Positions 4,674 through 64,000 of a stretch of 64,000 nucleotides of DNA are shown in pieces. The position numbers and the translations under genes are program-made. The DNA comes from Cellulophaga sp. BC115SP (GTDB lineage: Bacteria; Bacteroidota; Bacteroidia; Cytophagales; Spirosomataceae). The notes under the pieces were generated by a model. The model made no database searches, was not told the DNA's origin, and saw only the letters and a program-made list of their open reading frames with translations. The stretch is taken from the NCBI RefSeq assembly GCF_009905545.1, contig NZ_JAAALB010000033.1:1-64000 (forward strand), in the 5' to 3' direction. How positions within the stretch are numbered: position 1 is the stretch's first letter; each line of letters begins with the position of its first letter.

Positions 4674-4686
4674 TTAAAACAAAAGC

Positions 4687-19254: not shown

Positions 19255-19259
19255 ATTTC

Positions 19260-19296: not shown

Positions 19297-19406
19297 ATTT
19301 ATAAACAAATTTCTGTCGAAAGATATGGCAAAGAAAAATTCTTTGCTAGGTCTATCCTTTTACCTATCCCTTACAAAAATGTACTTGTAGTACACAACAA
19401 ACACGT

Positions 19407-21746: not shown

Positions 21747-21765
21747 AGTGATAAGTCGTTAATTG

Positions 21766-21880: not shown

Positions 21881-21896
21881 TTTGTTTAGTAAAACG

Positions 21897-23828: not shown

Positions 23829-24147
23829 CTGTTGTTTTTATTAAATACGTTATAGCAAGCGAGCTTCATCAACATTTTTCACAACTGACAAAGTTTTGCC
23901 ATAACCTCGTAAGGATGCTTAGTCAAAAGGCTTTGTCTCTATTCATTTTCATAGAAATAGGTATGTAATTTTCAGTTAAAAGTTCATCGCTTGAAAATGT
24001 AAAATAAGTTGATGACTAAAAATTTGATTAGCACATTTTACTCGTTTTGTGTACTTAATGTTTAACACCTAAAAAAAATACCCAAATTCTACCATAAGAC
24101 ATACAAAAGGGCAGAATTTGGGTATTGAGCTTTATAACAAAAGAATC
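23829..24147. other. Intergenic region between the GH43 and RIC genes
   Basis: No gene is seen in these 319 bp. The left part must hold the GH43 promoter, but no clear TAnnTTTG element is visible on the minus strand. The right part holds the RIC gene terminator, described separately. Confidence 0.5.
24078..24125 (-). terminator. Terminator of the RIC gene
   Basis: Perfect 13-bp arms (24078-24090 and 24113-24125, ATACCCAAATTCT and its complement). Read on the minus strand, a run of T follows the stem, so it has all parts of an intrinsic terminator. Confidence 0.8.
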
Positions 24148-24879
24148 CTAATGGGTCATTATTTCCATTTCGAGCGCTGCTAACTTGGGAAATAAAATGT
24201 TGTTTTCCAAATGCACATGTTGTGTCAAATCAGTATCTAATTCCTCTAATTTAGATAACATTACAATGTGGGAATTACAGGCGTCCACAGGAGGAGTATA
24301 ATTATTAGTAATTTCTCGAAGTCTAAACAGTAACTCTCCAGCCTCTTCGTGCTCGCTATTCATCATACTGATTGGATTTTTGACTGTCCGAAAAAATGGA
24401 GGTGCTACTTGTGCATGTTCCTCAGATGCTGTTACAAGAGACTTTCCATAAGGAAATATTACATTTTCCTCTTTAGGCAGGTGCCCTAACAAGTCTTCTT
24501 CAAGAATCGTATAAACGGTAGCTAATTCCGTTAGATAAGCATATTTATCCTTGTGCTTGGTACAAACCTTCTCTACAAAATATCTGATTTCGGGTAAGTT
24601 TTTATACAAAAATTGATGATGTACTTGATAGATATAGTCAATCAAGAAGTCGAGCTTTAGGCTATTAAAATCCAAAGACTTGTCGCCCGTTTTTGACAGC
24701 AACTCTATTTCTTCCCAAATTTCTGCTGGATCTTGTTTCTTCTTCTTACATTCTTCAGTAAAGCTCTTATTGCCCCCACAGCAAAAATCAATATTCAACT
24801 TTCTAAACACACTTGCTGCTTTGGGATTATGTGCGACTATTTCGCCTACGGTCTTAGTATCAAAGTTTATCGTTTCCAT
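24148..24879 (-). CDS. ric: Iron-sulfur cluster repair di-iron protein (RIC/YtfE/ScdA)
   Basis: A 243-residue cytoplasmic di-iron protein that repairs iron-sulfur clusters damaged by nitric oxide or oxidants. The N-terminal DUF542-type domain (residues 1-60) shows TVGEIVAHNPKAASVFRKL and the paired cysteines in IDFCCGG. A hemerythrin-like four-helix domain with metal ligands follows: YQVHHQFL, LGHLPKEENVIFP, MNSEHEEAGELL and QHVHLENNILFPKL. The length is normal. It is the first gene after the xylan locus and has no functional link to it. Low-oxygen or nitrosative stress control would be expected, but no operator was recognised. Confidence 0.93.
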   Translation of the reverse strand: METINFDTKTVGEIVAHNPKAASVFRKLNIDFCCGGNKSFTEECKKKKQDPAEIWEEIELLSKTGDKSLDFNSLKLDFLIDYIYQVHHQFLYKNLPEIRYFVEKVCTKHKDKYAYLTELATVYTILEEDLLGHLPKEENVIFPYGKSLVTASEEHAQVAPPFFRTVKNPISMMNSEHEEAGELLFRLREITNNYTPPVDACNSHIVMLSKLEELDTDLTQHVHLENNILFPKLAALEMEIMTH

Positions 24880-24985
24880 AAAATATTTGAGTTAAATTTT
24901 TGAACAAAAATAAAAGACTTTTTTGTCTTTTATTATGACTAATATCAAAACTAGAACTCGTAAAAATCAGGAAGATAAATGAAAG

Positions 24986-25723
24986 TCATTTCAGAAAAAT
25001 ACTCCAAATGACAAAAGGGAGGCATGAGCAGGTTTCGACACCGAACGAAAAGTAAAGATCTGAATTATCTTTTTCGGTAAAAAACACAAAAATCATCGAT
25101 ATAAAACAGGTTAGCACAAATGCAATGGCGTATTGTTCTTTTAGATAAATCATGCTCAATCCAGCCGCCAACACAAGCATACCATAAGCCAAATATTTAG
25201 ACTTTTGGATACCTATTAATTGCGGAAAAGTAATAATTGAATCAGTATCAACATCTCGAATATCAAACGGAAGAATCAAGGCTGTGATAAACAATAAGGT
25301 CATCAAAAAAATAGAAAAACTAAAATAGTGAAAAGAAAGCCATCCGTTGACCAGTCCCCACACAATACCAACATACAGCCCTTTCAGCAGTGGAATTTTA
25401 CGAATAGTAGTACTCAAAAACTGGCTATTGTACAGAAGCCCTAAAAACGAGATAGTAACCCATTTATAAAATCGATGGGCATTATGATTGTGAAAAATCA
25501 GTGAAATACTAATTAAGGCTATTATACTATTGATAATCAATATTTTATTAAAAAAAGATACGCCTTGATATTTGGTATAAATATACCCGTTGAAGTACGT
25601 TACAAAAATGAGGAAGAAAGTAGGAAATCGAAAACTACCTTCTTCTAACATAAAAAATGTAGCAAGTAAAGTTCCCATCAAAGCCACATAAAGCTGGCTA
25701 TCTATTATGATTTTTTTCAGCAC
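24986..25723 (-). CDS. UbiA-like integral membrane protein
   Basis: A 245-residue polytopic membrane protein with about seven to eight hydrophobic helices, resembling the UbiA prenyltransferase superfamily. The second Asp-rich motif is visible as PFDIRDVDTD in a loop. The first one (NDxxDxxxD) is not: the matching place reads VTYFNGYIYTKYQG, without the aspartates. It may therefore be a non-catalytic or divergent member. It is short for the family (usually 280-300 residues). It lies 106 bp upstream of the RIC gene on the same strand, and the pair might be co-transcribed. The substrate is unknown. Confidence 0.65.
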   Translation of the reverse strand: MLKKIIIDSQLYVALMGTLLATFFMLEEGSFRFPTFFLIFVTYFNGYIYTKYQGVSFFNKILIINSIIALISISLIFHNHNAHRFYKWVTISFLGLLYNSQFLSTTIRKIPLLKGLYVGIVWGLVNGWLSFHYFSFSIFLMTLLFITALILPFDIRDVDTDSIITFPQLIGIQKSKYLAYGMLVLAAGLSMIYLKEQYAIAFVLTCFISMIFVFFTEKDNSDLYFSFGVETCSCLPFVIWSIFLK

Positions 25724-25981
25724 TGGTAATCAAAATTTAAAATTGTTCTATCGATTAGAATAGAGAAACTGCCATTTGTTTAAAGGGTTTTAACAAACCA
25801 AAACACAAATAGAACAAATAACCTTGAACTTTATACCTAAAAAATTCATAAATCTTACATTTAATTTATTTCTACAGATTTTCTCCAAAATTGAGCTATA
25901 ATATTGTGGTATTCTATTTCCAACAAACAGATAAATATATCTATACAATTGATAATCATGCATTTAACAAATTTTATAAGA

Positions 25982-28435
25982 ATGAATTATTTCATCAAAA
26001 GTCCCATATTAACCCTACTTTTATTACTTACCTCACTATCAGCTGTTTTGGGACAGAAAGTATCTCCAAAAAATACTTCCGAATTAACGGGACAGGTTTT
26101 AGATATTTCCAACAATAAAGGTTTGAGCTTTGCTTCGGTCACTCTTTTGAAAAAAGAAGGCGAAAAAACGCAACTTACAGCTGGTGCTACTGCCGATGAA
26201 AATGGCAATTTCAAACTTTCAAATGTCCCATTGGGAGAGTTTGTGTTAAGAGTGTCTTTTATCTCTTATAAAACTTTTGAAAAGGCAATCAAAGTAGAGC
26301 AGAGCCATCAAAATATTGAAACGATTCTCCTTTCACCAGACGCTAATGTACTGCAAGAAGTACAGGTGAAGGGCGAAAAAGATGCCGCTTCATTCAACAT
26401 GGATAAACGTGTGTTTAGTGTTGGGAAAAACCTAACAAGCATCGGCGGAACGGCTGAAGCCCTACTAAAAAGCGTACCTTCGGTAAGCATTGACGAAACA
26501 GGAAGCGCTAGTATTCGCAACCTCGCTACCACTATTTATATCAATGGTAAACCAACTCAACTAACTTTAGCACAAATTCCAGCCAATCAAATAGAGTCGG
26601 TTGAGGTAGTTTCAAACCCTTCGGCACGATACGATGCGTCAACTTCGGGAGGTATTATCAATTTGGTTTTGAAAAAAAATCGAGAAGCAGGATATAATGG
26701 TATGGCAAGTGTTGGTATTGGTAACAACGGTAGATATGATGCGTCATTGAACTTAGATTATCATCAAAATAAGTGGACTTTTAATGTACTATACAACCTC
26801 AACGCTACCAAAAATCCGCTCACTGGATATGTGGACAGAACTACAACTAATCGTGGTATCATGAGTTATTTTCAGCAAAACACTGATATTAACCAAGATA
26901 ATACTTTCCAGAATGGGCGTATTTCCACTGAATTTTCACCCAATAAATATAACACCTTCACGCTTGCAGGTAATCTTGTAGGTGGCTCCTATAATACTTT
27001 CACCAATCAGTCTTATGCCTATAAAGATGCTCAAAACAAGGTTTTGAGTTCGGGAACTCGAACAACCGTACCTGCCAATAATTACACCAATTTTGGTATT
27101 GAATTCGACTGGAAAAAAAGCTTTGCTCAAAAAGGAAAAGAGTTGAGTTTGATGACTTCTTTTACGAAAAATACCATTTCTAATGCTGCTGACTGGCTTA
27201 CAACAAGCTTAAATGCTGATAATACTAGCATGGATGGGTATCCAGAAATAGATAAAATCACAGGAAGTCAGGCTGGTTCGCAATATCTTTTTCAGTTAGA
27301 TTATACCAAACCAATTAATGATTCTACCAAAATAGAAATGGGTATTCGCTCATTTAATTACACCCGCGACATTCAGTATTTGTTCAACAAGAAAAACAAC
27401 GATACTTATACTTTATTGGAAGGATATTCGCAAGATGGCGTAATCAAAGAATCTGTTAATGCTGCCTATTTTATGTATAGCACCAAGCTCAAACGTAATT
27501 ATAGTATTCAAGGTGGCTTACGATTTGAAGAATCATTTTTGCATGGTAATTCAAGATTTGATGGCGCAACCTTTGGGTATGATTACCCAAGTGCACAAAA
27601 TGGAGACTGGATAAAAGCATTTTTCCCTTCTTTCTCTATTTCTAAAAAACTTGGTAATGATTCAGAATTAGGTTTAAGTCTAGGAAGAAAAGTTGGTAGA
27701 CCCAATTTCCGCCATCTTTTTGTAGGTATTCAAGCCAACGATAAGCAAAATATTACTGTTGGAAACCCAAAAGTACAACCTGAATTTGTCAATTCTGCGG
27801 AACTTTCTTACAATACCTCTTGGGGACATTTGTCGTGGTTAGCCACTGGCTATTACATTTATGAAGACCATACCATTAAGCCATTTACGCAGGCTTCGAG
27901 CACAGATTCTACCATTTTGGTAACAACATTTATCAATACAAAAGCCGATATTCAGTACGGAATTGATAATACCTTAAAACTAAATCTTGGAAATTTATCG
28001 GTGTTAGGCAACATCAATGCTTATCATTTTTTGATACAATCTGTGACGCAGCAAAACGAAATGTTTACGTATCGTGCCAAATTGAATATTTCGTACAAGT
28101 TTCCAAAAGATATTGTCGCTCAAATTAACTTGAATAGAGACGCCAAATCGCCCACTTTGCAAGGATATCGCAAGCCAATAGAAGCAGCAGATTTTGCCAT
28201 CAAGAAGATGTTTATGAACAATCGAGCAAGCATCGCTTTTGCGGTTAATGATATTTTTAATTCTCGCCAATATATTACGGTGTATGATCAAGGCAATATT
28301 ATGCAAAGTACGATGAACCGTAGAGAGGTAAGATTTTACAAACTCACCATTCAATTACCTATCGGACAAGCTAATTCATTTTTCAAGAAGAAATCTCAGA
28401 ATGTAAACAAACCTGATATTGATTTTAGTAATTAA
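25982..28435 (+). CDS. TonB-dependent receptor, outer-membrane beta-barrel family
   Basis: About 817 residues. The reading frame is open further upstream (to 25904), but the ATG at 25982 begins a good signal peptide (MNYFIKSPILTLLLLLTSLSAVLGQ), so this start is preferred. A carboxypeptidase-regulatory-like domain (residues 35-115 of this start) precedes a plug with SVPSVSIDETGSASIRN and YINGKPTQL, then a large beta-barrel of the OMP_b-brl_3 type. It lacks the SusC features and has no SusD partner. Cargo is unknown. It ends directly against a copy of the dispersed repeat. Confidence 0.88.
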   Translation: MNYFIKSPILTLLLLLTSLSAVLGQKVSPKNTSELTGQVLDISNNKGLSFASVTLLKKEGEKTQLTAGATADENGNFKLSNVPLGEFVLRVSFISYKTFEKAIKVEQSHQNIETILLSPDANVLQEVQVKGEKDAASFNMDKRVFSVGKNLTSIGGTAEALLKSVPSVSIDETGSASIRNLATTIYINGKPTQLTLAQIPANQIESVEVVSNPSARYDASTSGGIINLVLKKNREAGYNGMASVGIGNNGRYDASLNLDYHQNKWTFNVLYNLNATKNPLTGYVDRTTTNRGIMSYFQQNTDINQDNTFQNGRISTEFSPNKYNTFTLAGNLVGGSYNTFTNQSYAYKDAQNKVLSSGTRTTVPANNYTNFGIEFDWKKSFAQKGKELSLMTSFTKNTISNAADWLTTSLNADNTSMDGYPEIDKITGSQAGSQYLFQLDYTKPINDSTKIEMGIRSFNYTRDIQYLFNKKNNDTYTLLEGYSQDGVIKESVNAAYFMYSTKLKRNYSIQGGLRFEESFLHGNSRFDGATFGYDYPSAQNGDWIKAFFPSFSISKKLGNDSELGLSLGRKVGRPNFRHLFVGIQANDKQNITVGNPKVQPEFVNSAELSYNTSWGHLSWLATGYYIYEDHTIKPFTQASSTDSTILVTTFINTKADIQYGIDNTLKLNLGNLSVLGNINAYHFLIQSVTQQNEMFTYRAKLNISYKFPKDIVAQINLNRDAKSPTLQGYRKPIEAADFAIKKMFMNNRASIAFAVNDIFNSRQYITVYDQGNIMQSTMNRREVRFYKLTIQLPIGQANSFFKKKSQNVNKPDIDFSN

Positions 28436-28550
28436 AGTAATTTTACCTGCTTTAGGCATTAAGCTTTAGGTCATAATTTTATGTGGTTTTCTAATCTTTT
28501 TTGTCTAATGCCTACGACGTAATAAGGTAATATTATTTTGCGTTATTACG
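28436..28550 (+). repeat. Dispersed 160-bp repeat, diverged copy
   Basis: Begins two bases or so after the TonB receptor stop. Shared landmarks with the copy at 20.7 kb are AATTTTACC near the start, a GGCATTAAGC-like block, TTTTTTGTCTAATGCCTACG and the final TATTTTGCGTTATTAC. The middle has deletions. Position and end hairpin suggest it also acts as a transcript end. Confidence 0.6.
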
Positions 28551-28752
28551 CTGTATACTATTGGAAAAGTACAAACTATATCATAACAGTTTATCCCTTT
28601 TTAATTAGGATTAAAACCTCGCCAAATACTACACACCTCGCTGACCATGTTTCTATCATGCACCAACCGCCAATTTTTCATTTTGTAGAATTCCTAGAAT
28701 ATAAAATCATAAGAAAAACAAAATTGTGTAGTTTTTGCGAATAAAAATCCCC

Positions 28753-42634: not shown

Positions 42635-43255
42635 ATGAAAATCGGTTATGCACGTGTAAGTACACAAGAACAAACGCTCGACCTACAAATTGATGCATTA
42701 AAAAAATATGGCTGTGAAAATATTTTTACAGACAAAGTTTCTGGCTTGAAAGCTCACAAACCAGAATTTGAAGAAATGATGAAATTTGTTAGAGAGGGTG
42801 ATACTGTTGTTATCTGGAAACTCGACCGCTTGGGTCGCTCAACAAAGCATTTGATTGATTTGGTTGCAGAATTAGAAAGGCGTAAAATCAACCTTGTTTC
42901 TCTTAACGACCCTATTGATACTACCTCACCAAGTGGAATTCTGGTCTTTCAAATTTTTTGTGCGTTGGCCGAACATGAAAGAAATATCATTGTGCAAAGA
43001 ACTAAGGCAGGTTTGGCTTCGGCTCGTGCCCGTGGACGCATGGGTGGTCGTCCTAAAGGTTTATTACCTAAATACCAAGATATTGCTCCAGCTGTAAAAG
43101 AACTTTACGATGCTCAAAAACTCTCGACAACGCAAATTATGAAGTTCTTCAAAATTGGAAGTCGTCGCACTTTTTACAAAATCTTAGCGCATGCAGGTGT
43201 TAAGGTTCAAGGATTTACCAAAAAACGAACACGACGCAAAGATGATACCCAATAA
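42635..43255 (+). CDS. Serine recombinase (resolvase/invertase family)
   Basis: A 206-residue small serine recombinase. The catalytic Ser9 is in YARVSTQEQ, and the catalytic arginines are in WKLDRLGRS. The long E-helix has AEHERNIIVQRTKAGLASARARGRMGGRPKG. The C terminus carries a helix-turn-helix (LSTTQIMKFFKIGSRRTFYKIL). Length and order fit plasmid resolvases and DNA invertases. With a plasmid-type replicon 7 kb away, resolution of multimers is a sensible role, but no clear res site was recognised next to it. It is transcribed divergently from the efflux operon. Confidence 0.92.
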   Translation: MKIGYARVSTQEQTLDLQIDALKKYGCENIFTDKVSGLKAHKPEFEEMMKFVREGDTVVIWKLDRLGRSTKHLIDLVAELERRKINLVSLNDPIDTTSPSGILVFQIFCALAEHERNIIVQRTKAGLASARARGRMGGRPKGLLPKYQDIAPAVKELYDAQKLSTTQIMKFFKIGSRRTFYKILAHAGVKVQGFTKKRTRRKDDTQ

Positions 43256-49593: not shown

Positions 49594-50565
49594 TTACAAT
49601 TTTATCAAACCCAATGCTATTGCTTCAGGAAAAGAGATTTCATCTTGAAAATCTGGCTCAATAATAACACCTTCGCCTAGTTCTCGTAAATGTCTCCACT
49701 CCGCTTCTAGTCCATTTTCTAGTATAAAACTACCTCTTACAATCAAACTCAAGTGTGCTACATTTGCTTTTTTCATGCTAGCACTTACTTTTTTCAATGC
49801 TTCTGTTTGCTTAATAGAATTGGTTTGAGCTATTTCTTGAGATTTATTTGAGACTACCGCCTGAAGCTCTTCTAGTGATTCTACGGGTTTTTCTACGGTA
49901 GCCTTGGCTAATTGTTGAATCAGTTTTTTCTCAATTTTTTTGCTTCCTTCTAAAACTTGCTGTTTTAAGGCACCTTGCATTTTGTCAATTCCTTGCGCAA
50001 AAACGGCATCACGTTTAATGGTGGCAGGACTTACTTTAAATTCCTCAGCCAACACAGATGCTGTATCTACAATATCGGTGTAAGTGCCACGCAAACCACC
50101 TTGGCGGTTTTTCATACGTTGATACTTTAGACCTCTAAAATACGAAAGCTGCTCGACAGTCATATTTCGGCGTCCTACCTGAAAGTCAATCATAAAATCT
50201 TTTACTTCGTCTATCGAAGGAAAAGTCATCAAGTCAATTTGAAAATCGACTCTATTTTTCTGACAAATTTCATAACGGTGATGGCCATCAAACAACACGA
50301 AAGCAGGCTCACTAGGCGTAGGATGGCTTGGATTTATTAATCCTTGCGTTGTATCCCAAACCAACAATGGTGTACGACAGCCATTGGCAATAATGCTATC
50401 TTCTAAAGATTTATATTCTTCGGCGCTCAAACTCGGAATAAATTCTTTGAGCTCTGGTAAAACCAAAAGGTTCTTCTTTACATTTTCAGATGAAATTAAC
50501 TTATTGTTTTTGAGCGTATTAGCAGTATTAATAGCTACCTGTTTTTTAAAATCTATCCCTTTCAT
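49594..50565 (-). CDS. parB: ParB-family partition protein
   Basis: A 323-residue ParB/Srx-fold DNA-binding protein. The N-terminal half holds the nucleotide-binding region with VLFDGHHRYEI (in place of GERR) and FQVGRRNMT. A helix-turn-helix part follows around SVLAEEFKVSPATIKRDAVFAQG, then a lysine-rich coiled region. The last 50 residues (from LSLIVRG to IALGLIKL) form a small domain not recognised. It lies 8 bp after parA, so they are one operon. It should load at a centromere-like site on the replicon and guide its segregation. Confidence 0.85.
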   Translation of the reverse strand: MKGIDFKKQVAINTANTLKNNKLISSENVKKNLLVLPELKEFIPSLSAEEYKSLEDSIIANGCRTPLLVWDTTQGLINPSHPTPSEPAFVLFDGHHRYEICQKNRVDFQIDLMTFPSIDEVKDFMIDFQVGRRNMTVEQLSYFRGLKYQRMKNRQGGLRGTYTDIVDTASVLAEEFKVSPATIKRDAVFAQGIDKMQGALKQQVLEGSKKIEKKLIQQLAKATVEKPVESLEELQAVVSNKSQEIAQTNSIKQTEALKKVSASMKKANVAHLSLIVRGSFILENGLEAEWRHLRELGEGVIIEPDFQDEISFPEAIALGLIKL

Positions 50566-50573
50566 ACCCCTTG

Positions 50574-51551
50574 TTAGTTATTAATCACTTGCAAATATTC
50601 AACGTATTCATCACAAAAATCTTTGTAACATTTATAGGCTTCCGACGACGCATTCAATGTTCCTAAGGTAGCTTGTAAAGCCTGAGATTTTTGAAAATCA
50701 ATCAAGTGTCTAATTTCGGTATTGAACACCCTAAAATCACTTCCCATGTTAGCTCTCAACGCTTCTTTGAAGCCATCGTGAACGGTATTCTTTTTGACCA
50801 TCGTAAAAACAATTCCATCCAAGGTCAAGTCACGATTGGTATGTGTTTTTACTTCGCTGATACGGTTTAACAAAGAGTTTAGTCCCTTCAAAGATGATGA
50901 CTCAGGAAGCATTGCAATGAGGGTAGAGTTGGATGCATTCAATGCTGATACGGTCAACTTACTCAAACTTGGAGGGCAATCGATGAGAATATAGTCGTAT
51001 TCCTCCAAAAGCGGCTCAATTTTATGCTTTAATCGAACGTCACCACCTACTTTTGATAACAAATCAACCTCGATTTCTGCTAAAGTAATATCGGATGGTG
51101 CCAACCAAAGGTTTTCTAAAATCTGAACTGTAGGTAATTGGATATCGGTAAATAGGCAATCTGCAATTTGCAATTCAGGATTTTCTATGCCCAAAATTTG
51201 AGATAAATTACCTTGTGGGTCAAAATCAATAAGTAATACTTTAAAGCCTTTTCTGACTAATGTTTCACCCAAACAGGCTGTCGTGGTAGTTTTTCCAACT
51301 CCACCTTTGTGATTTACAATCGAGATTACGCGAGCACTTTGATAGAGGTATTCGTTATAGCCATACTTGCGTAAAATAGGTTCTAATTTGGCCAAATCAT
51401 CTTCGCTGAGTTTTCGAGAACCATTCGAATTGAAAACTAAATCTAATTTGCGTTTGGGTAATCCTGCTTCGTCATTAACTCCATTGACACTAAGGGATGG
51501 GTTATGGCGAAAAAAAGAGACTATTTTCTCTAAAGTCAGGTTGCTTCTCAT
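50574..51551 (-). CDS. parA: ParA-family partition ATPase
   Basis: A 325-residue partition ATPase. About 65 N-terminal residues (with NGVNDEAGLPKRKLDLVF) look like a helix-turn-helix domain, as in type Ia plasmid ParA proteins that repress their own operon. The deviant Walker A is NHKGGVGKTTTT, Walker A' is LLIDFDPQGNLS, and Walker B is YDYILIDCPPSLS. It lies between the initiator gene and parB on the same strand. It moves the replicon along the nucleoid together with ParB. Confidence 0.93.
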   Translation of the reverse strand: MRSNLTLEKIVSFFRHNPSLSVNGVNDEAGLPKRKLDLVFNSNGSRKLSEDDLAKLEPILRKYGYNEYLYQSARVISIVNHKGGVGKTTTTACLGETLVRKGFKVLLIDFDPQGNLSQILGIENPELQIADCLFTDIQLPTVQILENLWLAPSDITLAEIEVDLLSKVGGDVRLKHKIEPLLEEYDYILIDCPPSLSKLTVSALNASNSTLIAMLPESSSLKGLNSLLNRISEVKTHTNRDLTLDGIVFTMVKKNTVHDGFKEALRANMGSDFRVFNTEIRHLIDFQKSQALQATLGTLNASSEAYKCYKDFCDEYVEYLQVINN

Positions 51552-51601
51552 AAATATTGTTTCGTAAACTTGATACTATGATCAAATAATGTGTTGATTT
51601 T

Positions 51602-53062
51602 CTAGAAATAATTTAACCCTAATGCTTTGGCTTGGGCGCCGTAATGTTTCACTAAACCTTCAAACAGATTCAAATCGTGATAGTGTTCGAGCGTTGTAAT
51701 GACTATTGCTTCAAATCCCGTGTTTTCATTAAAATAGGCCAAAAAGCTATCAAGGCTAATTTCTGTACCTACTTTGGATACGTAGCTGTCATAATAAATC
51801 GCAGAAAAAGCAGAAGTATTGAGCGAATTCAAAACCCTTTGATACAATTGATGATTCTGTTGAAGTGACTCTAACACCAATTTTTTCTTTTGCTTGTACA
51901 CTTCATGTAAAAAATCATCTTGCTGTTGCTTAAGTTGCTCAAGTTGAAGTTTTTCATTTTCCGACTTCTTCAATACCGCCTTCAGTACTCGCTTTTCTTC
52001 TTCTACAGCCTTTTGGCGCTCTACCAGTTGCGATGAGCTAACAATGGTTTTGAGATATGCAGGAATATTCTTGATTTTCTTGGGCTCTTTCTCCAGTTCT
52101 GTTTGTACATATTCCACACCCAAAATCACCTGTTCGATAGGATATTGCTCAAGCCAATTCTGCAACGTCGACGAGTCTATCCCCCAAACTTGTACAATTC
52201 CAGAAAGTCTCTGCAAAGTACTTGACTCAAAATTGGGTTGGGTATTTGACTCGACCACTTCATAATTTGAATCTTCTGCTTCTTGACTCGTTGGATTAGT
52301 CTCTACTTCCAACTGAGCTTGCGTTTTGTTAGGGTTTTTCCGAATCACAAATTGCAGAGCTACTACTTTTTTGCCTTCTTTGATTTCATTAAAATCAAAA
52401 ATCAAATCAGAGTTTTTAATCAGCTCGTCTTGCGCTTTGACAACTACTTTTTGCTTAAACAAACCGTATAACTCATATTTGTTTTCGAGATTAAACATCC
52501 GACGCATTTCTTCTACGGTAAATTGAAACTTGCCGAAACGCTCAAACTCTTTACAAAAACCATAAAACCGAATAGCATACACACTATCCATCGACACGAT
52601 GTTGCGCACATCGATGTAAGTAAAATTCTTTTTGAGTTGCAACAAATAAGCATCCAACATAGGCGGAAACAAAAAACTAAACGCGCCCTCTTTTTTGTGA
52701 TATTCGATTTGTGCTAAAATGTTGGCCACTTTCCACCCTCGCTCATCTTCCAAGAAGATTTCTTTCTTCATCAACTTCCGTGACTCCTTTTCCAACAGGT
52801 TGTAGAGATAATCACTAGTTTTTGTTTTTAGAAACTGAGATACTTCCGAAACCTTCACTTTGGTCACCTTAAAACCAGAAGAAGTCTGGTCTGTATTTAA
52901 AACCAAAAAGTGAAAAATCTTCATTTGAAAGGCTGTTAAGTCAAACCTTGCATTGAGCAATGGATTTCCCAACACCACCATGTAAGAACTACTGGAGATT
53001 CGCTCCAATGCTTCTATTTCTTTGTTTTCTTGGGTAGTTCTCTTTTTAATACCTTGCTTCAT
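51602..53062 (-). CDS. repB: Rep_3-type plasmid replication initiator (RepB family)
   Basis: About 486 residues from the ATG at 53062 (MKQGIKKRTTQE). An upstream TTG (53089) is a less likely start. Two winged-helix domains typical of Rep_3 initiators (RepE, RepA, Pi) cover residues 30-260: MVVLGNPLLNARFDLTAFQMKIFHFLV, NIVSMDSVYAIRFYGFCKEFERFGKF, and FTVEEMRRMFNLENKYELYGLFKQKVV. The extra 220 C-terminal residues are charged and include a coiled coil (about 345-400). It binds the iterons directly upstream of its own gene and starts replication. Rep_3 initiators mark plasmids and chromids rather than main chromosomes. Confidence 0.92.
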   Translation of the reverse strand: MKQGIKKRTTQENKEIEALERISSSSYMVVLGNPLLNARFDLTAFQMKIFHFLVLNTDQTSSGFKVTKVKVSEVSQFLKTKTSDYLYNLLEKESRKLMKKEIFLEDERGWKVANILAQIEYHKKEGAFSFLFPPMLDAYLLQLKKNFTYIDVRNIVSMDSVYAIRFYGFCKEFERFGKFQFTVEEMRRMFNLENKYELYGLFKQKVVVKAQDELIKNSDLIFDFNEIKEGKKVVALQFVIRKNPNKTQAQLEVETNPTSQEAEDSNYEVVESNTQPNFESSTLQRLSGIVQVWGIDSSTLQNWLEQYPIEQVILGVEYVQTELEKEPKKIKNIPAYLKTIVSSSQLVERQKAVEEEKRVLKAVLKKSENEKLQLEQLKQQQDDFLHEVYKQKKKLVLESLQQNHQLYQRVLNSLNTSAFSAIYYDSYVSKVGTEISLDSFLAYFNENTGFEAIVITTLEHYHDLNLFEGLVKHYGAQAKALGLNYF

Positions 53063-53111
53063 AGTTAATCTCTCATCATATTCTTTCAAAATTTATATAT
53101 ATCAAAAATAG

Positions 53112-53182
53112 TGATTCAATTTTGTATCAAAATTACAAGAATATTTTATTAATGCAAGTAAAATAGATTCAAAATTGTATCA
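53112..53182 (-). promoter_or_regulatory. repB promoter with two operator sites
   Basis: On the minus strand TAATTTTG (53128-53135) matches TAnnTTTG. It is overlapped by the near-palindrome TGATTCAATTTTGTATCA (53112-53129). A second copy, AGATTCAAAATTGTATCA, lies at 53165-53182. Their half-sites share TTCAAAA and TTxTAT elements with the iterons, as expected when initiator dimers repress the rep gene. Confidence 0.6.
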
Positions 53183-53236
53183 TTGTAAGATTTATAAATG
53201 CTCCTAGAAATTGTATTTTTCCGATATTACAAATAA

Positions 53237-53361
53237 CACTCTAAAAGTTATACTTGGCACTTCAAAAGTTATATTAACACACTCCAAAAGTTATATTAAC
53301 ACACTCTAAAAGTTATACTTGACACTTCAAAAGTTATATTAAGCACTCTAAAAGTTATATT
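53237..53361 (+). other. Replication origin: six tandem iterons
   Basis: Six directly repeated copies of CACTYYAAAAGTTATAYT start at 53237, 53258, 53280, 53302, 53323 and 53344, so they recur every 21-22 bp, two helical turns. This is the standard Rep_3 iteron array. It lies between the repB promoter and an extremely AT-rich tract (about 53430-53580) that could be the unwinding element. Confidence 0.9.
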
Positions 53362-54468
53362 AACACTATGTAAAAAACTGAAAATCAATTAGTTACGCAG
53401 GAGGAAATATTAGGAAATACTTAAGGAAATAAAAAAGAAATACTCTCAAATGTAAAAAGTGAGATTTTTTTGATTGTTTTTTGAAGAAAAAAAATTGGAT
53501 AAAAATAAAGGATACTTTTAAAGTCAAAATCCACTTTTTTTTGTAAAACTCCTACTTTGTGTGAAATAAGAATTTTTGCGCCAACACTTCAAAAGTTATA
53601 TTTAAAATGTTTTGGCGAAATTTAATCCTTTATGGCAACACTCTAAAAGTTATGGTTAAAAAGTACTCTATTTTGTTTAGTCTGTAGAGTCACTAGATAA
53701 TTAGTGCTTTTTTGCCTTGAAATCTTCGATTTAAGACACTTTTATAGTTCTTGTGTGTAAATACTTCACTTAAACTTAAAATGTTGCTAAAAAACGTGGT
53801 TTATGGAGGTTTTACTCAAATGACTTGAATAAAAATCTTAGAAAGCAAGTTGAATCAAAATTTTCTGAGGATTTTAATCTTCATATCAATATCCTCATTC
53901 CTTAGAGCAAAGTATCACGATGATACTTTGCTCTAACGTAACGAACCTGATGAATGTGAAAAGATGAGTGTTGGTGAAGGATTCAAGGTTGAGTTCTTGG
54001 TCAATGCACAAACGAGTAAACTTATTGTGTCGGTTTTAGGTGGTTGTTTGTGTATGCTTTGAAAATTTAGGAAAGAATACTGAATTTATGAGCGAGTTGA
54101 AAGGTAAGAGTTTCAGCTGTTGATGTTCTAGTCTTGAACGGATTACATTTAACAAATAGGTTCTCAAACAATTATGCTTTGAAGCGCATAAGAAAACTTG
54201 GTAAGATGAAGTATAATTAATAATAAATTATTTTGAAATTTTCAAAAGTAGCAAAATTGGATACTTCATAAAAAGTGCGTTTTCAAGAAAATTAAGCAGA
54301 AAAGCAAAGTGTCACAGTGATACTTTGCCCCTCTTTCACACTTCAAAAGTTATATTTAGAAGCCTCAATAATATAACTTTTGAAGTGTGATTTTAGAAAA
54401 TTTGATTGATTTTTGTGGAACAAAATGGCTAAATTATCTAAGGTTTTGGTACTGACATTAGTCAAAAA
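53362..54468. other. Remainder of the origin region, with four outlying iterons and palindromes
   Basis: No gene in about 1.1 kb. Further iterons lie at 53585-53602, 53639-53656, 54339-54356 and, inverted, 54370-54387. The last two face each other. AT-rich sequence with long A and T runs fills 53430-53580. Two palindromes of the AAAGTRTCA family are present: TTAGAGCAAAGTATCA with its exact complement (53902-53936) and GCAAAGTGTCAC near 54304-54328. A DnaA box of good quality was not found. Confidence 0.7.
53902..53936. repeat. Palindrome with 16-bp perfect arms in the origin region
   Basis: Arms at 53902-53917 and 53921-53936 around CGA. Core AAAGTATCA...TGATACTTT, the same family as 1398-1418, 54304-54328 and 58496-58530. 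Confidence 0.8.
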
Positions 54469-55337: not shown

Positions 55338-55406
55338 AAGATGAGATTTGTTTTAGTTGATATAAAAATTGAGTGTTTGGGGCAAAGTATCACAATGAGC
55401 TTTTGC

Positions 55407-57896: not shown

Positions 57897-58474
57897 GCAA
57901 AGTATCACAATGATCTTTTGCTTAGCATAGCAAAAACCTTCTTGCTAGTTCAAGCCTTATTCTTGGACTAATTTTTTCAAACAGTTTAAAAACTGAAGCA
58001 ATATTGAGTCCGAGACAGAGTCTCGAACTATTGAGCAAAGTATCATAATGAGCTTTTGCTTGGTTTTGGAAAAATACTCTTACTAGTTCAAGATTTATTC
58101 TTGGACTAATTTTTTCAAACAGTTTAAAAACTGGAGCAATAGTGAGTCCGAGACAAAGCCTCGAACTAGAGAGCAAAGTATCACGATGAGCTTTTGGTTA
58201 GTTTTGGAAAAATACTCTTGCTAGTTCAAGAGTTGTTCTTGGACTCTTTGTTTTAATCAGTTTTAAAACTGAAGCAATAATTAGTCCGAGACAAAGTCTC
58301 GAACTAGAGAGCAAAGTATCACGATGAGCTTTTGCTTAGCATAGCAAAAATCTTCTTGCTAGTTCAAGCCTTATTCTTGAGCTTATTTTTTCAAACAGTT
58401 TATAAACTGAAGCAATAGTGAGTCCGAGACAAAGTATCGAACTAGATAGCAAAGTGTCACAATGAGCTTTTGCA
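57897..58474. repeat. Tandem array of a 138-bp unit (four copies plus a fifth partial)
   Basis: Units begin GCAAAGTATCA at 57897, 58035, 58173, 58311 and 58449, exactly 138 bp apart. Each holds a GCAAAG...CTTTTGC hairpin, a TAGTTCAAG...TTCTTGGACT arm, AAACAGTTTAAAAACTG, and a GTCCGAGACAAAGTCTCGAACTA palindrome. Because 138 is divisible by 3, an open frame of 84 codons runs through it on the minus strand, but it is only a by-product. A diverged single unit lies at 21766-21880. Both places are just 3' of a GH43 gene. Confidence 0.9.
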
Positions 58475-58495: not shown

Positions 58496-58530
58496 AAAGG
58501 GCAAAGTATCAGAATGACACTTTGCCCTTT
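58496..58530 (-). terminator. Palindromic terminator of the second GH43 gene
   Basis: AAAGGGCAAAGTATCA pairs with TGACACTTTGCCCTTT (one G-U type mismatch) around a 3-nt loop. It lies 22 bp beyond the GH43 stop codon on its strand. It has the same 16-3-16 design as the palindrome in the origin. Confidence 0.7.
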
Positions 58531-58552: not shown

Positions 58553-59596
58553 TTATTTATATGCTGAAATAGTTTGAATTGTCCCATCTGGATTATGGTG
58601 TAATTCAGTCACTTTTACATTTCTTAAATGTGTTTGTCCTGATAGCTGAACATCGTGATAAAACAAATACCATTTCCCTTTTACTTCAACTATAGAATGG
58701 TGGTTTGTCCAGCCTTCAACGGGGTTTAGTACAACTCCTTTGTAAGTAAATGGTCCATAGGGAGAATCTCCTGTGGCATAACTGATAAAATGAGTATCAC
58801 CAGTAGAGTAGGAGAAATAGTATTTTCCTTTGTATTTATGCATCCAAGCAGCCTCAAAAAATCTCTTATCATTGTTTCCCTCCAATAATACATTTCCTTG
58901 CTCATCTAAGATTTGAATGTCTTTTGGACTTTCTGAAAAACTTTTTAAATCAGGGGATAGTTTGGCAATCTTGGGTAGTAGCGCTTTTTCGTTCGCTTTT
59001 TGCAGAGCGCCATTAGCATCATATTTACCTGTTTTCCAACGTTGCAATTGTCCACCCCAAATACCGCCAAAATACATATAATAGCTACCATCAGAGTCTT
59101 TAAAAACTGCTGGGTCTATACTAAAACTGCCTTCGATGGGTTTTGGCTCAGCTTTAAATGGACCGTAAGGTTTTTTACTGGTGGCTACTCCAATTCTAAA
59201 AATACCTTCTTGGTCTTTGGCTGGGAAAAATAGATAATACGTACCGTTTTTGTAGGCCGCATCTGGTGCCCATAATTGCTTGCTAGCCCAAGGTACATCC
59301 TTCAAATCTAATGCAACACCATGATCAGTAACTTTTCTACCGATTTTGTCCATTGAAAGAATATGAAAATCTTTCATGTCAAACTTGGCTCCATCTGCAT
59401 CTCTACTAACATTCGTTTCAATATCATGCGAAGGATAGATATAAATTTTTCCTTCAAAAACATGCGCAGAAGGATCCGCCGTATAGATATGCTTTACGAG
59501 TGGTTGAGAAATAGGCTGTTTTTTCTGCTGAGCAATGGAGATTTGCGATAGCAAAAAAAATGCTGATGTATATATACCTAAACTTCTTATTTTCAT
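58553..59596 (-). CDS. GH43 family glycoside hydrolase (arabinofuranosidase/xylosidase)
   Basis: A 347-residue, single-domain GH43 enzyme with signal peptide (SQISIAQQ). Catalytic base Asp41 is in TADPSAHVFEGKIYIYPSHD, the second Asp is in SIDPAVFKDSDGSYYMYFGG, and the acid Glu is in RFFEAAWMHKYKGKYYFSYS. It lacks the accessory domains of the 643-residue GH43 in the first locus. It is downstream of the GH67, dehydrogenase and uxuA genes, in the same direction, so it likely removes arabinose or xylose from glucuronoarabinoxylan oligosaccharides in the periplasm. Confidence 0.9.
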   Translation of the reverse strand: MKIRSLGIYTSAFFLLSQISIAQQKKQPISQPLVKHIYTADPSAHVFEGKIYIYPSHDIETNVSRDADGAKFDMKDFHILSMDKIGRKVTDHGVALDLKDVPWASKQLWAPDAAYKNGTYYLFFPAKDQEGIFRIGVATSKKPYGPFKAEPKPIEGSFSIDPAVFKDSDGSYYMYFGGIWGGQLQRWKTGKYDANGALQKANEKALLPKIAKLSPDLKSFSESPKDIQILDEQGNVLLEGNNDKRFFEAAWMHKYKGKYYFSYSTGDTHFISYATGDSPYGPFTYKGVVLNPVEGWTNHHSIVEVKGKWYLFYHDVQLSGQTHLRNVKVTELHHNPDGTIQTISAYK

Positions 59597-59679
59597 TTTA
59601 ATAATACAAAATAATTATATTTAAAATTTACTTAAATATTTGTTTATAAGTTTTTTATATAAAATCAAAGCAATATTAT

Positions 59680-60432
59680 TTAGAAACCAATAGAGTTGCC
59701 TCCATCTACAGGTAATGATGCACCAGTAATATATTTTGCAGCGTCTGAAGCTAAAAATACTACTGCCGTACCAATATCTTCTGGTTTTCCAAAAAAGCCC
59801 ATAGGCGTTCGGTCAAGTGCTTTATTCATACGTGCAGGGTCACTATTCATAGCTGTTTGCATCATGGCTGTTTCGATAAAGCCAGGTGCTACTGCATTGA
59901 CCCTAACTTGGCTAGGAGATAAATCCATCGCTAACGATTTTACAAGTCCTTCGACGCCGTGTTTTGAGGCAGAGTAAGCAGGTACTCGGTCGATACCATA
60001 ATAGGCAGCCATAGACGAAATCATGATAATATTTCCCGATTTACGACCCACCATTCGTTGAGCGACAGCTCTTGTTAAAGAAAATACAGAGTTAAGATTC
60101 GTATGAATAATTCGTTGAAATTCTTCATCAGTTACTTCTAAGGCTGGTTTTTTCATGTTTATTCCAGCATTGTTAACGAGAATGTCAATAGTCCCGATTT
60201 GTGTTTCGATATGCTCAACTAGGTTTTCTAATTGGTCAAGCACTGTTACATCGTTTACCACATATTTGGCTTTATCTCCTAATTGCTGAACGGCTTCTTG
60301 AAGTGCATGTTCACGACGTCCTGTAATGACAACCGTCGCACCAGCGTTAATCATACATTGAGCTATGGCAAAGCCAATACCACTTCCGCCGCCAGTAATA
60401 AGGGCAATTTTATTATCAAGTCTAAAATTCAT
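59680..60432 (-). CDS. Short-chain dehydrogenase, probable D-fructuronate/D-mannonate oxidoreductase
   Basis: About 250 residues from the ATG at 60432 (MNFRLDNKIALITGGGSGIG). The frame is open 126 bp upstream but without SDR features. Rossmann motif TGGGSGIG, NNAG, catalytic Ser in MISSMAAYY and YSASK are all present, and the end SLPVDGGNSIGF is normal. SDR enzymes of this kind replace UxuB in many Bacteroidetes. Placement between the GH67 alpha-glucuronidase and GH43 genes with uxuA upstream argues for fructuronate reduction to mannonate, the step before UxuA. The substrate assignment is from context. Confidence 0.85.
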   Translation of the reverse strand: MNFRLDNKIALITGGGSGIGFAIAQCMINAGATVVITGRREHALQEAVQQLGDKAKYVVNDVTVLDQLENLVEHIETQIGTIDILVNNAGINMKKPALEVTDEEFQRIIHTNLNSVFSLTRAVAQRMVGRKSGNIIMISSMAAYYGIDRVPAYSASKHGVEGLVKSLAMDLSPSQVRVNAVAPGFIETAMMQTAMNSDPARMNKALDRTPMGFFGKPEDIGTAVVFLASDAAKYITGASLPVDGGNSIGF

Positions 60433-60600
60433 AAGGTAATTAAGTTTGGGTGTCGAGCTAAGACTCTGATTTAAAATGTTTACTGACAGATTATTAGCTC
60501 GAAGTTTTAATTGAATGTTATGCTGTAAGCGTATTACCATTAATGGAGCTATTTCCACAAAGGCAAAATGAATGTCTATTTACTCAAGGCTTAATGCCTA

Positions 60601-62715
60601 TTACTTAAGTTGATAAATTCGAACAATTTCTTTCATTTCGTCGAGCGTTCTGGATGGCGCTTGATATGGGGCAGGAATGGCTTGTTTTGAGTATTGTTGA
60701 AAGTACAACACGCAAGCATCTCGCCAATTCAGTGCCTCACGATGCTGAGCGGCTAATCGACCAGATACATCAGCAAATATTTGTGGGTCGATAGAAGACT
60801 GAACAGAATTCCATTGTTTTTGCATCCACTCTACTGATTTAACGCCCTCGTAGTAGCGACTAGCAAATTCATTCCAGAGCGTTTTGCCAGAACTAAGTTT
60901 TTTATTCCAAGAAACATGGTGAAACCACAGTAAATAGGGGAGAGGACAAGTATCTGGATTTCCCCACTGAGTTTGAACTTCTTTGGCATATAACCCAAGA
61001 GCATTACTTCCTTGGGCAGTTCTGTCAAAACCAAGACCTACAGAGTCGGCGCGATGGTAATAAATGGCTGTCCAGTCGGGGCGTGCACTTTTTTCGAGCC
61101 AAGGTTCGGGACCAAAGTGAATATTTTGTCCCATTACATGATGCAGGCCAAGAGGGGTTGTAAAATCCACATAAATTTCACGGGATTTCATCATCAAATC
61201 TTGAATCGTCGCAACTGCTTTAGGCTCTTGAGTTAGACTCATTTTTATCCATTCTGAAGCAATTTGTTCAGAGCTAAGACTATGATTCCACGCCAATCTA
61301 CCAAAGGCATACCAATTGGCTTGAGACATTAAATGCCCCGTCCAGTTACGATCTGAACCTGTATTAGCTACACCAGCTATAGCCGTAAGTGAATGATTAT
61401 CAACACTTCCATCAACGATTTTTGCAACTGTTGAACCCTTGCCATTAGAATAAGTATCACTTTCTAGACACTCTTTGAAAAGTGGTGCTTCGTACACAAG
61501 ATTGGTACTAAAGCCCAAATATTCTTGTGTAAGTTGGAATTCCATAGCAAGTGGCGTTTTTGGCATAGCACCAAAAAGCGGATGGAATGGCTCACGAGAT
61601 TGGAAATCTATCGGTCCATTTTTTACCTGTACTAACACATTAGAAGCAAACGTGCCATCAAGAGGCTTAAAATCCTTATAAGCTTCTTTGAAACGGTCGC
61701 CTTTGGGATCGGCAGCGTAAACAAAAGCACGCCAAATGACAATTCCTTTGTAAGGTGCTACTGCTTCGGCAAGCATATTGGCGCCATCGGCATGAGTTCT
61801 GCCAAAGTCTTGAGGACCAGGCTCACCTTCAGAATTAGCTTTTACCAAGTATCCTCCAAAATCAGGAATAGCAGCATAAATTTCCTTAGTGACATTTTTC
61901 CACCAATTTCTCACTTCTGGAGCCATTGGGTCAGAATTTTTTGCACCAACCAAAAGTTTTGGCGCTGCAAAATTTAAGGAAAGAAATACCTTTATCCCGT
62001 AAGGACGAAAAACATCTGCTAGGGCTTTTACTTTTCCGATATATTCTTTGGTCAAAAATCTAGCACTGGCATTGACGTTATTCAAAACAACCGCATTGAT
62101 ACCGATTGAGGCATTAGCACGAGCATAATCGATGTATCGTTGGTCTATTACTTCTGGTAATTCATACCATTTCCACAGAGAAGAACCCGCATAACCACGT
62201 TCGATAGTACCAAGGGGATTATCCCAGTGGTTGAGCATTCGGTACTTGATTTTTGGTGAATCCGTGATATTGATTTGTGCGATTGAACTTCCACTTTGTA
62301 GTTGTCTCAAAAAAGCAAAAGAACCATATAATACGCCAGAAGCTGTACGAGAACGAATTACGATATTCTGATTTTCTTCTCGAATCGTAAAACTATCTTC
62401 CGCAAGTTGATTCGTTTGTTCATTTTGAATAACTTGAAGAATGATAACTCCCTTTTTTCCTGCTGGAGTAGTTAAAATCGAAATCTTTTTCCCTAATAAT
62501 CCAGACAAACCAGCTTGAAGTTCTTTTTTGGCTGTTTTTGTAATAGCATCCTGATTATCAGAGTAAATGAACTGACATTTTTGAGCATAGCTATTTCTTT
62601 GTTGAATATTAGCAACAAGGTCAAATTTTAACCAAAGCCTATACCCATCATCCGCATGAGCCAATTGAGTGATGCTCAAAAGTAGAATGATAATTAATTT
62701 TTGAAAATATCTCAT
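60601..62715 (-). CDS. aguA: GH67 alpha-glucuronidase
   Basis: About 704 residues from the ATG at 62715 (MRYFQKLIIILLLSITQLAHA, signal peptide). An upstream TTG is less likely. The N-terminal GH67 domain (about 25-135) precedes the catalytic barrel with NHWDNPLGTIERGYAGSSLWKW, DFGGYLVKANSEGEPGPQDFGRTHADGANML, and MPKTPLAMEFQLTQEYLG. The C-terminal helical domain includes HHVMGQNIHFGPEPW. The length fits family members near 700. It removes 4-O-methyl-D-glucuronic acid from the non-reducing end of xylo-oligosaccharides, complementing the xylanases and esterase of the first locus. Confidence 0.95.
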   Translation of the reverse strand: MRYFQKLIIILLLSITQLAHADDGYRLWLKFDLVANIQQRNSYAQKCQFIYSDNQDAITKTAKKELQAGLSGLLGKKISILTTPAGKKGVIILQVIQNEQTNQLAEDSFTIREENQNIVIRSRTASGVLYGSFAFLRQLQSGSSIAQINITDSPKIKYRMLNHWDNPLGTIERGYAGSSLWKWYELPEVIDQRYIDYARANASIGINAVVLNNVNASARFLTKEYIGKVKALADVFRPYGIKVFLSLNFAAPKLLVGAKNSDPMAPEVRNWWKNVTKEIYAAIPDFGGYLVKANSEGEPGPQDFGRTHADGANMLAEAVAPYKGIVIWRAFVYAADPKGDRFKEAYKDFKPLDGTFASNVLVQVKNGPIDFQSREPFHPLFGAMPKTPLAMEFQLTQEYLGFSTNLVYEAPLFKECLESDTYSNGKGSTVAKIVDGSVDNHSLTAIAGVANTGSDRNWTGHLMSQANWYAFGRLAWNHSLSSEQIASEWIKMSLTQEPKAVATIQDLMMKSREIYVDFTTPLGLHHVMGQNIHFGPEPWLEKSARPDWTAIYYHRADSVGLGFDRTAQGSNALGLYAKEVQTQWGNPDTCPLPYLLWFHHVSWNKKLSSGKTLWNEFASRYYEGVKSVEWMQKQWNSVQSSIDPQIFADVSGRLAAQHREALNWRDACVLYFQQYSKQAIPAPYQAPSRTLDEMKEIVRIYQLK

Positions 62716-62869
62716 ACGTGGTAAGTTAGTAGGCAAAATAAAATTTAAGATTGTGCTTTGTGCTTTCAGGTAAGGGCTTTCGGCGGTGGGCTTTGGAAAA
62801 AAGCATGGCTGTGGTTATTAAAAACATTTTAAAACTCTTTGCCTTGTTCCTGTTGCCTAGTGCCTTTTA

Positions 62870-64000
62870 CTACAATATGCTCCTCTTGATTCCTAATTCC
62901 AGTCCTCTAAGTTCTGCAAGCCCTTTTAATCGACCAATGGCAGAATAGCCCGGGTAGGTTTTTTTCCCATTCGTCAAATCATCCAGCATCAAATGACCAT
63001 GATCGGGACGCATTGGGATTTGACGTTCGGCTCCTTTTTTGTTTTCTTCCAAAACTACCGCTTTCACTACCTCATACATATCGACATCGCCAGTGAGATG
63101 TGCAGCTTCGTGAAAATTCAATGGGTTTTCTTCTCTTTTGGTAGTTCGTAAATGCAAAAAATGAATACGATGTCCCCAACGAGTTATCATTCCTGCTAAA
63201 TCATTATCTTCTCTAACTCCCAGAGAACCAGTGCAAAATGTAATGCCATTGGCTGTGACGTCGCATGCTTGCATGAGTTGTACCAAATCAGACTCGGTAC
63301 TCACAACACGTGGTAAGCCCAAAAGAGACTTTGGAGGATCATCAGGGTGGATACATAGATTGACGCCCAGTTCTTGGGCTAGCGGTGCAATCTGCTGAAT
63401 AAAGTAATACAGATTGGCACGAAGTTCGGCATCACCTATATGAGCGTAATTATTTAATAAACCTTGAAAAGTAGTAAGACTAAATGCTTCTTCTGAGCCG
63501 GGCAAACCTAGCAAAACAGTATTGGTTAACTCCTTAAGTTCATCCTCTGTCATTTGCTCGAATTTAGCTTTTGCAGCCTCCTGAACCTCTTGCGTATAAT
63601 CATTTTTAGCATTGGGACGTTGAAGGATATATAAATCGAACAAGGCGAAATCTTGCCAAACAAAGCGTAGGGCTTGAGAGCCATCTGGCATGCTATAATT
63701 GAGCTTGGTGCGCGACCAATCTAACACAGGCATAAAATTGTAGCAAACAATAGTAACCCCACACGCCGCCAAATTGCGTAGAGAAGCTTTGTAGTTCTCA
63801 ATATATAAATCACGAGAAGGAAGTCCTTTTTTGATATCCTCGTGCACAGGGAGACTTTCTACAACGAGCCATTTTAAGGATGAATACTGTTGATTATCAG
63901 CTTCAATGATTTGAATTCTTTCTTGAATGGCCTCTTTAGACCATATTTCACCGACAGGAATTTGATGGAGAGCGGAAACAACCCCCGTACACCCTGCCTG
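62870..64000 (-). CDS. uxuA: Mannonate dehydratase UxuA (5' end beyond the window)
   Basis: 377 codons are visible and the frame runs open to the last base. The first visible residues are QAGCTGVVSALHQIPVGEIW, so only about 15-20 N-terminal residues are missing compared with the usual 390-395. Conserved blocks include VCYNFMPVLDWSRT, VNLCIHPDDPP, GITFCTGSLGVR, HFLHLRTTKREENP and MRPDHGHLMLDD, with metal-binding Cys, His and Asp residues in place. It converts D-mannonate to 2-keto-3-deoxygluconate. With GH67 and the dehydrogenase downstream it forms the uronate branch of glucuronoxylan catabolism. An internal GTG at 63847 is not the start. Confidence 0.95.
   Translation of the reverse strand, partial: QAGCTGVVSALHQIPVGEIWSKEAIQERIQIIEADNQQYSSLKWLVVESLPVHEDIKKGLPSRDLYIENYKASLRNLAACGVTIVCYNFMPVLDWSRTKLNYSMPDGSQALRFVWQDFALFDLYILQRPNAKNDYTQEVQEAAKAKFEQMTEDELKELTNTVLLGLPGSEEAFSLTTFQGLLNNYAHIGDAELRANLYYFIQQIAPLAQELGVNLCIHPDDPPKSLLGLPRVVSTESDLVQLMQACDVTANGITFCTGSLGVREDNDLAGMITRWGHRIHFLHLRTTKREENPLNFHEAAHLTGDVDMYEVVKAVVLEENKKGAERQIPMRPDHGHLMLDDLTNGKKTYPGYSAIGRLKGLAELRGLELGIKRSIL

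Follow-up and report, generated by a model that had tools for sequence, protein, structure and literature searches.

In the genome of Cellulophaga sp. BC115SP, does the block of replication and partition genes that lies between two loci for xylan breakdown keep a free replicon going, and does the neighbouring catabolic equipment travel with it? The block in question, rep-parA-parB-like with its iterons, is carried by the window, i.e., the whole stretch of 64,000 nucleotides that was analyzed, corresponding to bases 1-64000 of a contig of 65,787 bp (C134) in an assembly of 7.08 Mb and 206 contigs (G000). We compared this genome with those of Flectobacillus longus LYT7W (G001), Flectobacillus sp. 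BAB-3569 (G003) and a near-complete congener (G002). Our reading, held with good confidence, is that the block serves to maintain a circular secondary replicon, a large plasmid of a Flectobacillus-type bacterium, with a Rep/iteron origin, candidate parS sites and a cargo directed at the plant cell wall.

Probable Circularity of the Replicon

The contig of BAB-3569 homologous to the window (161,267 bp) exhibits an exact direct overlap of 401 bp between its ends and closes to 160,866 bp. Within that genome the overlap sequence occurs at those two ends only, and it is present in single copy in contig C17 of F. longus and in contig C111 of our own genome. An open reading frame (ORF) of 505 amino acids runs across the join, and in F. 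longus C17 the two ends lie side by side. The circle holds the xylan locus, the rep-par genes and the GH67/uxuA locus in the same linear order as the window, which aligns to its positions 95.6-155.2 kb except for window bases 1-1397 and a segment at about 24.1-28.7 kb. The latter (24121-28677, about 4.5 kb), which encodes a ScdA_N/hemerythrin protein and a TonB-dependent receptor, has no alignment to BAB-3569. The F. longus counterpart of its left part is at the start of C17, inverted and with a 6.6-kb insert, and that of its right part is at the end of C17.

In our own genome, contigs C134 and C111 tile the BAB-3569 circle in order and would amount to about 186.5 kb if both close. C134 breaks off on its right, and C111 on its left, within one GATTTGAA tandem repeat, through which the BAB-3569 assembly reads; at this assembly break the repeat occupies L008:1720-1787 and the start of L102. 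Exact end overlap was present in G003:C16 and G001:C22 and missing from the other 16 of the 18 contigs tested (for C111, the final 698 bases were left out), and the plasmid-sized contigs of G002 that were tested had none. F. longus C17 did not close by end overlap. For F. longus C22, a 119-bp end overlap and an ORF across the join were found; the same 119 bp also start contig C56, and closure is thus ambiguous.

No transfer RNA (tRNA) gene was detected in the BAB-3569 contig, the window or positions 1-120000 of C111, all scanned in pieces. The 16S rRNA model (Rfam RF00177) matched just one of five genomes and was uninformative as a chromosome marker. The G002 assembly consists of a 5,432,081-bp contig, on which the matches to the dnaA region bridge both ends, together with six contigs of 12-279 kb, four of which have a Rep match, and our own genome has seven contigs with such a match; these genomes thus look rich in replicons of this sort. 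One small contig of our genome (G000:C206, 5,291 bp), possibly a small mobilisable plasmid, combines a Rep match with a relaxase match below cut-off. A megablast search of window positions 40000-64000 against a plasmid collection returned no match, so that collection holds no near copy of this part of the window. The free replicon suggested in the preliminary description is thus supported by the closed circle of BAB-3569, the tiling of C134 and C111 and the lack of tRNA genes in the scanned pieces; both catabolic loci lie on it in BAB-3569 and, by tiling, in our own genome, and its copy number is presumably low.

Replication and Partition Genes

All three genes are read from the minus strand, starting with rep at 53062, followed by parA and ending with the parB-like gene at 49594. 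The first, rep (51602-53062, minus strand), encodes a Rep_3-type replication initiator of 486 amino acids in which both Rep_3 winged-helix domains, PF01051 and PF21205, score above the Pfam cut-off (Rep3_N, 3.2e-25; Rep3_C, 1.4e-13). The protein is 97% identical to its closest named relatives, those of F. longus LYT7W and Flectobacillus sp. BAB-3569, 66% to that of Arcicella rosea and 56% to that of a congeneric metagenome-assembled genome (MAG). The second, parA (50574-51551, minus strand), encodes a Walker-type partition ATPase of 325 amino acids (AAA_31, 1.4e-48; phrog_164 ParA, 8e-58). Its AAA_31 match starts at residue 74, leaving an N-terminal extension which we take to be that of a type Ia ParA.

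The third gene (49594-50565, minus strand) encodes a protein of 323 amino acids, presumed to bind the centromere, that belongs to a conserved family and carries a DGHHRY box, a GRRN box and an ATIKRD segment. It has no Pfam match at 0.001; among PHROGs it matches two families of unknown function (1e-8 and 3e-7) and, weakly, four ParB-like families (E 0.0013-0.033). The family is conserved in 15 replicon loci, window included, and matches 63 plasmid records. Of these, 56 come from genera of the Persicobacter, Runella, Aureibacter, Spirosoma, Emticicia and Flammeovirga type, which belong to the order Cytophagales. Among the 30 of the 63 records that were listed, 21 matching proteins are annotated as hypothetical protein and three as ParB N-terminal domain-containing. 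Our own genome also encodes a chromosomal ParA/ParB pair of the Soj/Spo0J type, in which, as in the window, a ParA-like ATPase lies beside ParB and the boxes align in order; the chromosomal ParB has GERR where the window protein has DGHHRY, and, unlike it, the window protein lacks a Pfam match, the profile match between the two not being significant. Two further results bear on whether this protein counts as a ParB: the hhalign comparison with the chromosomal ParB, in which the boxes align in order, gives a probability of 1.2% (E 0.043), and its AlphaFold model is poor (mean predicted local distance difference test score, pLDDT, 51.9). A search of the PDB with the profile of the protein gave two matches only, of an unrelated-looking kind (E 0.085 and 0.81). 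As judged from the PHROG and hhalign scores, the kinship of the family to canonical ParB appears weak. Two distant relatives (28-29% identity), each read as an ORF, were also seen in viral contigs.

Elsewhere in the window, a serine recombinase of the resolvase/invertase type (42635-43255, plus strand; PF00239, 4e-47; phrog_125 DNA invertase) possibly plays a role in multimer resolution.

Iterons and Presumed Origin

The iteron CACTYYAAAAGTTATA has 10 sites in the window (at most two mismatches) versus 0.49 +/- 0.72 expected, and none of 100 shuffles reached 10. With the Pfam and PHROG matches of the genes, this excess bears out the earlier proposal of a rep-parA-parB-like block with iterons. 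Six iterons, spaced by 21-22 bp, lie upstream of rep (53237-53359, plus strand) and mark the presumed origin. Two outlying copies follow at 53585 and 53639 (53585-53654, plus strand), and an inverted pair at 54339 and 54372, with perfect arms of 21 bp, spans 54336-54390. The spacing of the six iterons is identical in L004-L007, the loci of BAB-3569, F. longus, Arcicella rosea and the MAG, and the iteron was found neither in 21 other rep loci (20 distinct places) nor in three 20-kb chromosomal stretches. Being common to related rep loci and absent from the others, the iterons mark one replicon lineage.

A Rep protein together with iterons is the standard arrangement of an iteron-controlled theta origin, as established for Rep_3 plasmids, and by analogy we infer an origin of this type in the window. 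A DnaA box is frequent in Rep_3 origins without being obligatory; no exact TTWTNCACA was found in the 4.5 kb of L002, where 0.9 would be expected by chance.

Candidate parS Palindromes

The palindrome pattern CAAAGTRTCANNNTGABMYTTTG occurs at 35 distinct sites in five whole genomes (nine in our own genome, nine in G001, seven in G003, ten in G004 and none in G002). All 35 are located on a contig with this type of rep, at most 5.5 kb from it, and the reversed pattern used as a control gives no site in the same genomes. In the window, all the candidate sites are on the origin side of the rep-parA-parB operon: a palindrome with 16-bp arms (53902-53936, pattern site 53908), a second one at 54305-54327, an asymmetric variant at 55383-55405 (plus strand), a tandem array of 4.2 units of 138 bp (57897-58473, plus strand) with candidate sites at 57898, 58036, 58174, 58312 and 58450, and a last palindrome at 58502-58524. 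The MAG has its candidate sites in an array of about 11 units of 76 bp, and the Arcicella locus has three sites of the asymmetric variant among its iterons. From this genome-wide exclusivity we infer that the palindrome is a strong parS candidate for the parB-like family.

Two points tell against this assignment. The pattern was derived from the sites of the window, the MAG and Arcicella, so that its presence there is by construction and only its absence elsewhere is informative, and the symmetric form of the palindrome is missing from the Arcicella locus. The sites could also be transcription terminators, or operators of another regulator encoded by the replicon, rather than parS; the perfect palindromes among them are indeed able to form hairpins and sit between genes. 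We nevertheless consider this unlikely, given that the palindromes are exclusive to this replicon type in the five genomes and clustered near rep-par, that they are repeated in arrays of 76 and 138 bp, that asymmetric variants are retained, and that a further replicon type carries, next to or within its parB-like gene, a TCANNNTGA-cored palindrome of its own. This second type carries the palindrome CATAATGCTCANNNTGAGCATTATG, with four sites in three of 157 loci (L009:13732, L136:238 and L075:8785 and 8851), which adjoin or fall within the parB-like genes of those loci. The common TCANNNTGA core suggests that the sites belong to one class and differ in their arms according to the replicon.

The likely DNA-segregation site of the replicon, as a parS candidate, looks undescribed and is the most novel part of the finding. 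More broadly, and giving this idea somewhat less than an even chance, we tentatively propose that the parB-like family and the TCANNNTGA-cored palindromes constitute a kind of plasmid centromere that is widespread in Cytophagales but as yet undescribed. Every replicon type would have its own palindrome, letting many large plasmids coexist in one cell, and the arrayed centromere of the window replicon would then reach the edge of its catabolic cargo.

Plasmid, Chromid or Integrated Element

The guanine-plus-cytosine (GC) content of the Flectobacillus copies of the replicon (37.3-38.1%) is close to that of a 60-kb chromosomal sample (37.1%), the MAG copy being at 40.1%. The replicon of our own genome is 91% identical to that of G001 and 88-89% to that of G003; chromosomal blocks are 83-93% identical to G001 and 84-96% to G003, about 90% in each case when length-weighted by hand over 40 kb. 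The replicon has thus diverged much like the chromosome, which is compatible with vertical inheritance.

Three observations stand against the reading of a free replicon inherited mainly with the chromosome. Near dnaA, G003 is nearer to our own genome than G001 is, whereas the replicon shows the opposite order. Where C111 would continue at its right end into the start of C134, the junction is drawn from synteny, with no exact overlap. Finally, the last 4.2 kb of C111 (G000:C111:116463-120698) encode isocitrate dehydrogenase and threonylcarbamoyl-AMP synthase, a stretch that is not on the closed circle of BAB-3569, F. longus C17 or C22 and that points towards a chromid or joined chromosomal DNA; the two genes may be additional copies, captured from the chromosome or brought in by an assembly join.

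A chromid, i.e., a plasmid-derived second chromosome with core genes and indispensable to the cell, would account for a GC content close to that of the chromosome, for the chromosome-like divergence, for the occurrence of related replicons in three Flectobacillus genomes, the congeneric MAG and Arcicella, and for the isocitrate dehydrogenase and Sua5/TsaC-type genes of C111. We hold it to be improbable, however, since neither of these two genes is on the closed circle of BAB-3569, F. longus C17 or C22, no tRNA gene was found in the scanned pieces and the Pfam families listed for the circle look accessory. Moreover, G002 has no candidate parS site and only a 37% identical Rep, so that this type of replicon is dispensable in the genus. 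Still less probable is an integration of the plasmid replicon into the chromosome of this strain: its own contigs are not closed and the right end of C111 has core-type genes past the synteny break, but BAB-3569 has a circle and the repeat junction of C134 with C111 matches that circle. A chromosomal island was rejected for BAB-3569 on account of the closed circle. We thus favor a large circular plasmid.

Cargo of the Replicon

Pfam matches on both flanks confirmed that the block lies between a xylan locus and a glucuronate locus. The xylan locus comprises two SusC/SusD pairs, two enzymes of glycoside hydrolase (GH) family 10, a hybrid two-component regulator, a SASA esterase and a GH43 enzyme. 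Its first part (1545-14741, plus strand) consists of SusC-SusD, SusC-like-SusD, a DUF5627 protein and a GH10 with CBM4_9, the second SusC being assigned by position, as its Pfam match is below cut-off only. The second part (15157-23828) has the regulator and the other GH10 on the plus strand, and the SASA esterase and GH43 on the minus strand. The glucuronate locus (58553-64000, minus strand) encodes GH43, SDR, GH67 and UxuA, the last running past the window end.

The BAB-3569 circle also encodes pobA, pcaH, pcaG, pcaDC, a fused pcaIJ, pcaF and pcaB, each scoring over at least one curated NCBIfam cut-off, with pobA and pcaB each missing another of theirs. This stretch (L053:852-8679, at 40.9-48.7 kb of the BAB-3569 contig) is aligned to about 58-66 kb of our own C111. 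By sequence match, its genes would cover every step from 4-hydroxybenzoate to protocatechuate and on to the cleavage of 3-oxoadipyl-CoA, on the circle that also bears the xylan locus. Among the Pfam families listed, the circle further has GH28 and efflux pumps, and our own C111 has GH115 and GH28; the survey of the BAB-3569 cargo covered 72 of 84 ORFs, with Pfam families listed for 25 of 37, 25 of 29 and 25 of 29 per batch, and is thus incomplete. As predicted from these families, the cargo would largely serve plant-cell-wall catabolism, with xylan capture and hydrolysis, glucuronate release, mannonate dehydration, GH28 and GH115. The preliminary description had gone further and spoken of complete glucuronoarabinoxylan use. 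This did not hold in the ORFs scanned: no family match to uronate isomerase was found in 38 of the 46 window ORFs of at least 100 amino acids (the other eight being of at most 130 amino acids) or in 32 of the 47 C111 ORFs of at least 330 amino acids.

Nor was the notion of a function portable in one unit upheld. The relaxase family PF03432 has no match on this replicon, matching only G000:C110, G000:C206 (below cut-off) and G002:C1, and VirB4/TraG (PF19044) has none either, only G000:C122 being matched; other relaxase and transfer families were not searched for. F. longus carries its xylan locus, with a SusC 98% identical, on the 152-kb contig C22, whose Rep is another one (28% identical). The same contig holds a 14-kb block that, on our own replicon, is located elsewhere and in the opposite orientation relative to the xylan locus. 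Beside the rep gene of C22 lies a protein (L096:3169-4254) that matches part of a xylanase/feruloyl esterase model, with a score far short of the cut-off. The congeneric MAG has a SusC with 88% identity on a contig of 46 kb that is not the one with rep, and in G002 the best SusC match reaches only 33%. The presence of the xylan locus on other contigs in F. longus and the MAG suggests that it changes replicon within the genus and that it is not always linked to the glucuronate locus.

Discussion

The maintenance of the replicon could be pictured as follows. Rep would bind the six phased iterons upstream of its gene, open the adjacent AT-rich DNA and start theta replication, while the outlying and inverted iterons would probably limit initiation and rep expression in the manner of the handcuffing sites of Rep_3 plasmids, as the family suggests. 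ParA and the parB-like protein would segregate the copies through the CAAAGTRTCANNNTGA-type candidate sites at 53.9-58.5 kb, including the 138-bp tandem array. The replicon would be inherited mainly along with the chromosome, and blocks of cargo such as the xylan locus may change replicon.

Known plasmids of related bacteria share parts of this organization. The Rep_3-type initiators of pEMTOL02 (NC_018749) and pEMTOL03 (NC_018743) of Emticicia oligotrophica are 35.5% and 32.4% identical over 97-98% of the query; like the window, these plasmids have ParA and a ParB-like neighbor, although in a different gene order or orientation, and no copy of the window iteron in the stretches examined. The circular plasmid pRUNSL01 of Runella slithyformis (NC_015693), also from Cytophagales, likewise has a replication initiator, ParA and a ParB-like ORF, with a GH10/GH43/esterase cluster beside rep-parA; no GH67, UxuA or SusC/D is listed within the 47 kb viewed, for which the gene table is incomplete. 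The complete circular plasmids unnamed4 of Hymenobacter tibetensis (NZ_CP094673) and unnamed2 of H. volaticus (NZ_CP095063) carry a xylan locus with regulator, SusC, SusD, GH10, GH43 and GH67 in one piece, whereas the window has two loci separated by rep-par; their GH10 and GH67 proteins are 45-48% identical to those of the window. Since Rep_3/ParA/ParB-like plasmids and plasmid xylan loci both exist in relatives, the replicon is of a known kind, and the one-piece loci of the Hymenobacter plasmids and the GH10/GH43 cluster beside rep-parA on pRUNSL01 do not bear out the idea that such an arrangement is rare in Bacteroidota. No plasmid-borne xylan locus in Bacteroidota is described in the titles and abstract openings that were consulted, which does not show that none has been published. 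One article (PMC8294855) names polysaccharide utilization among plasmid-encoded traits in general.

Taken together with its counterparts in relatives, the replicon suggests that plant-polymer catabolism in these bacteria is located on secondary replicons and reassorted between them. It also provides a concrete candidate parS and origin for a group whose partition gene is, among the records listed, mostly annotated as hypothetical. This pair could allow plasmid stability and incompatibility to be studied in Cytophagales and stable vectors to be built for them.

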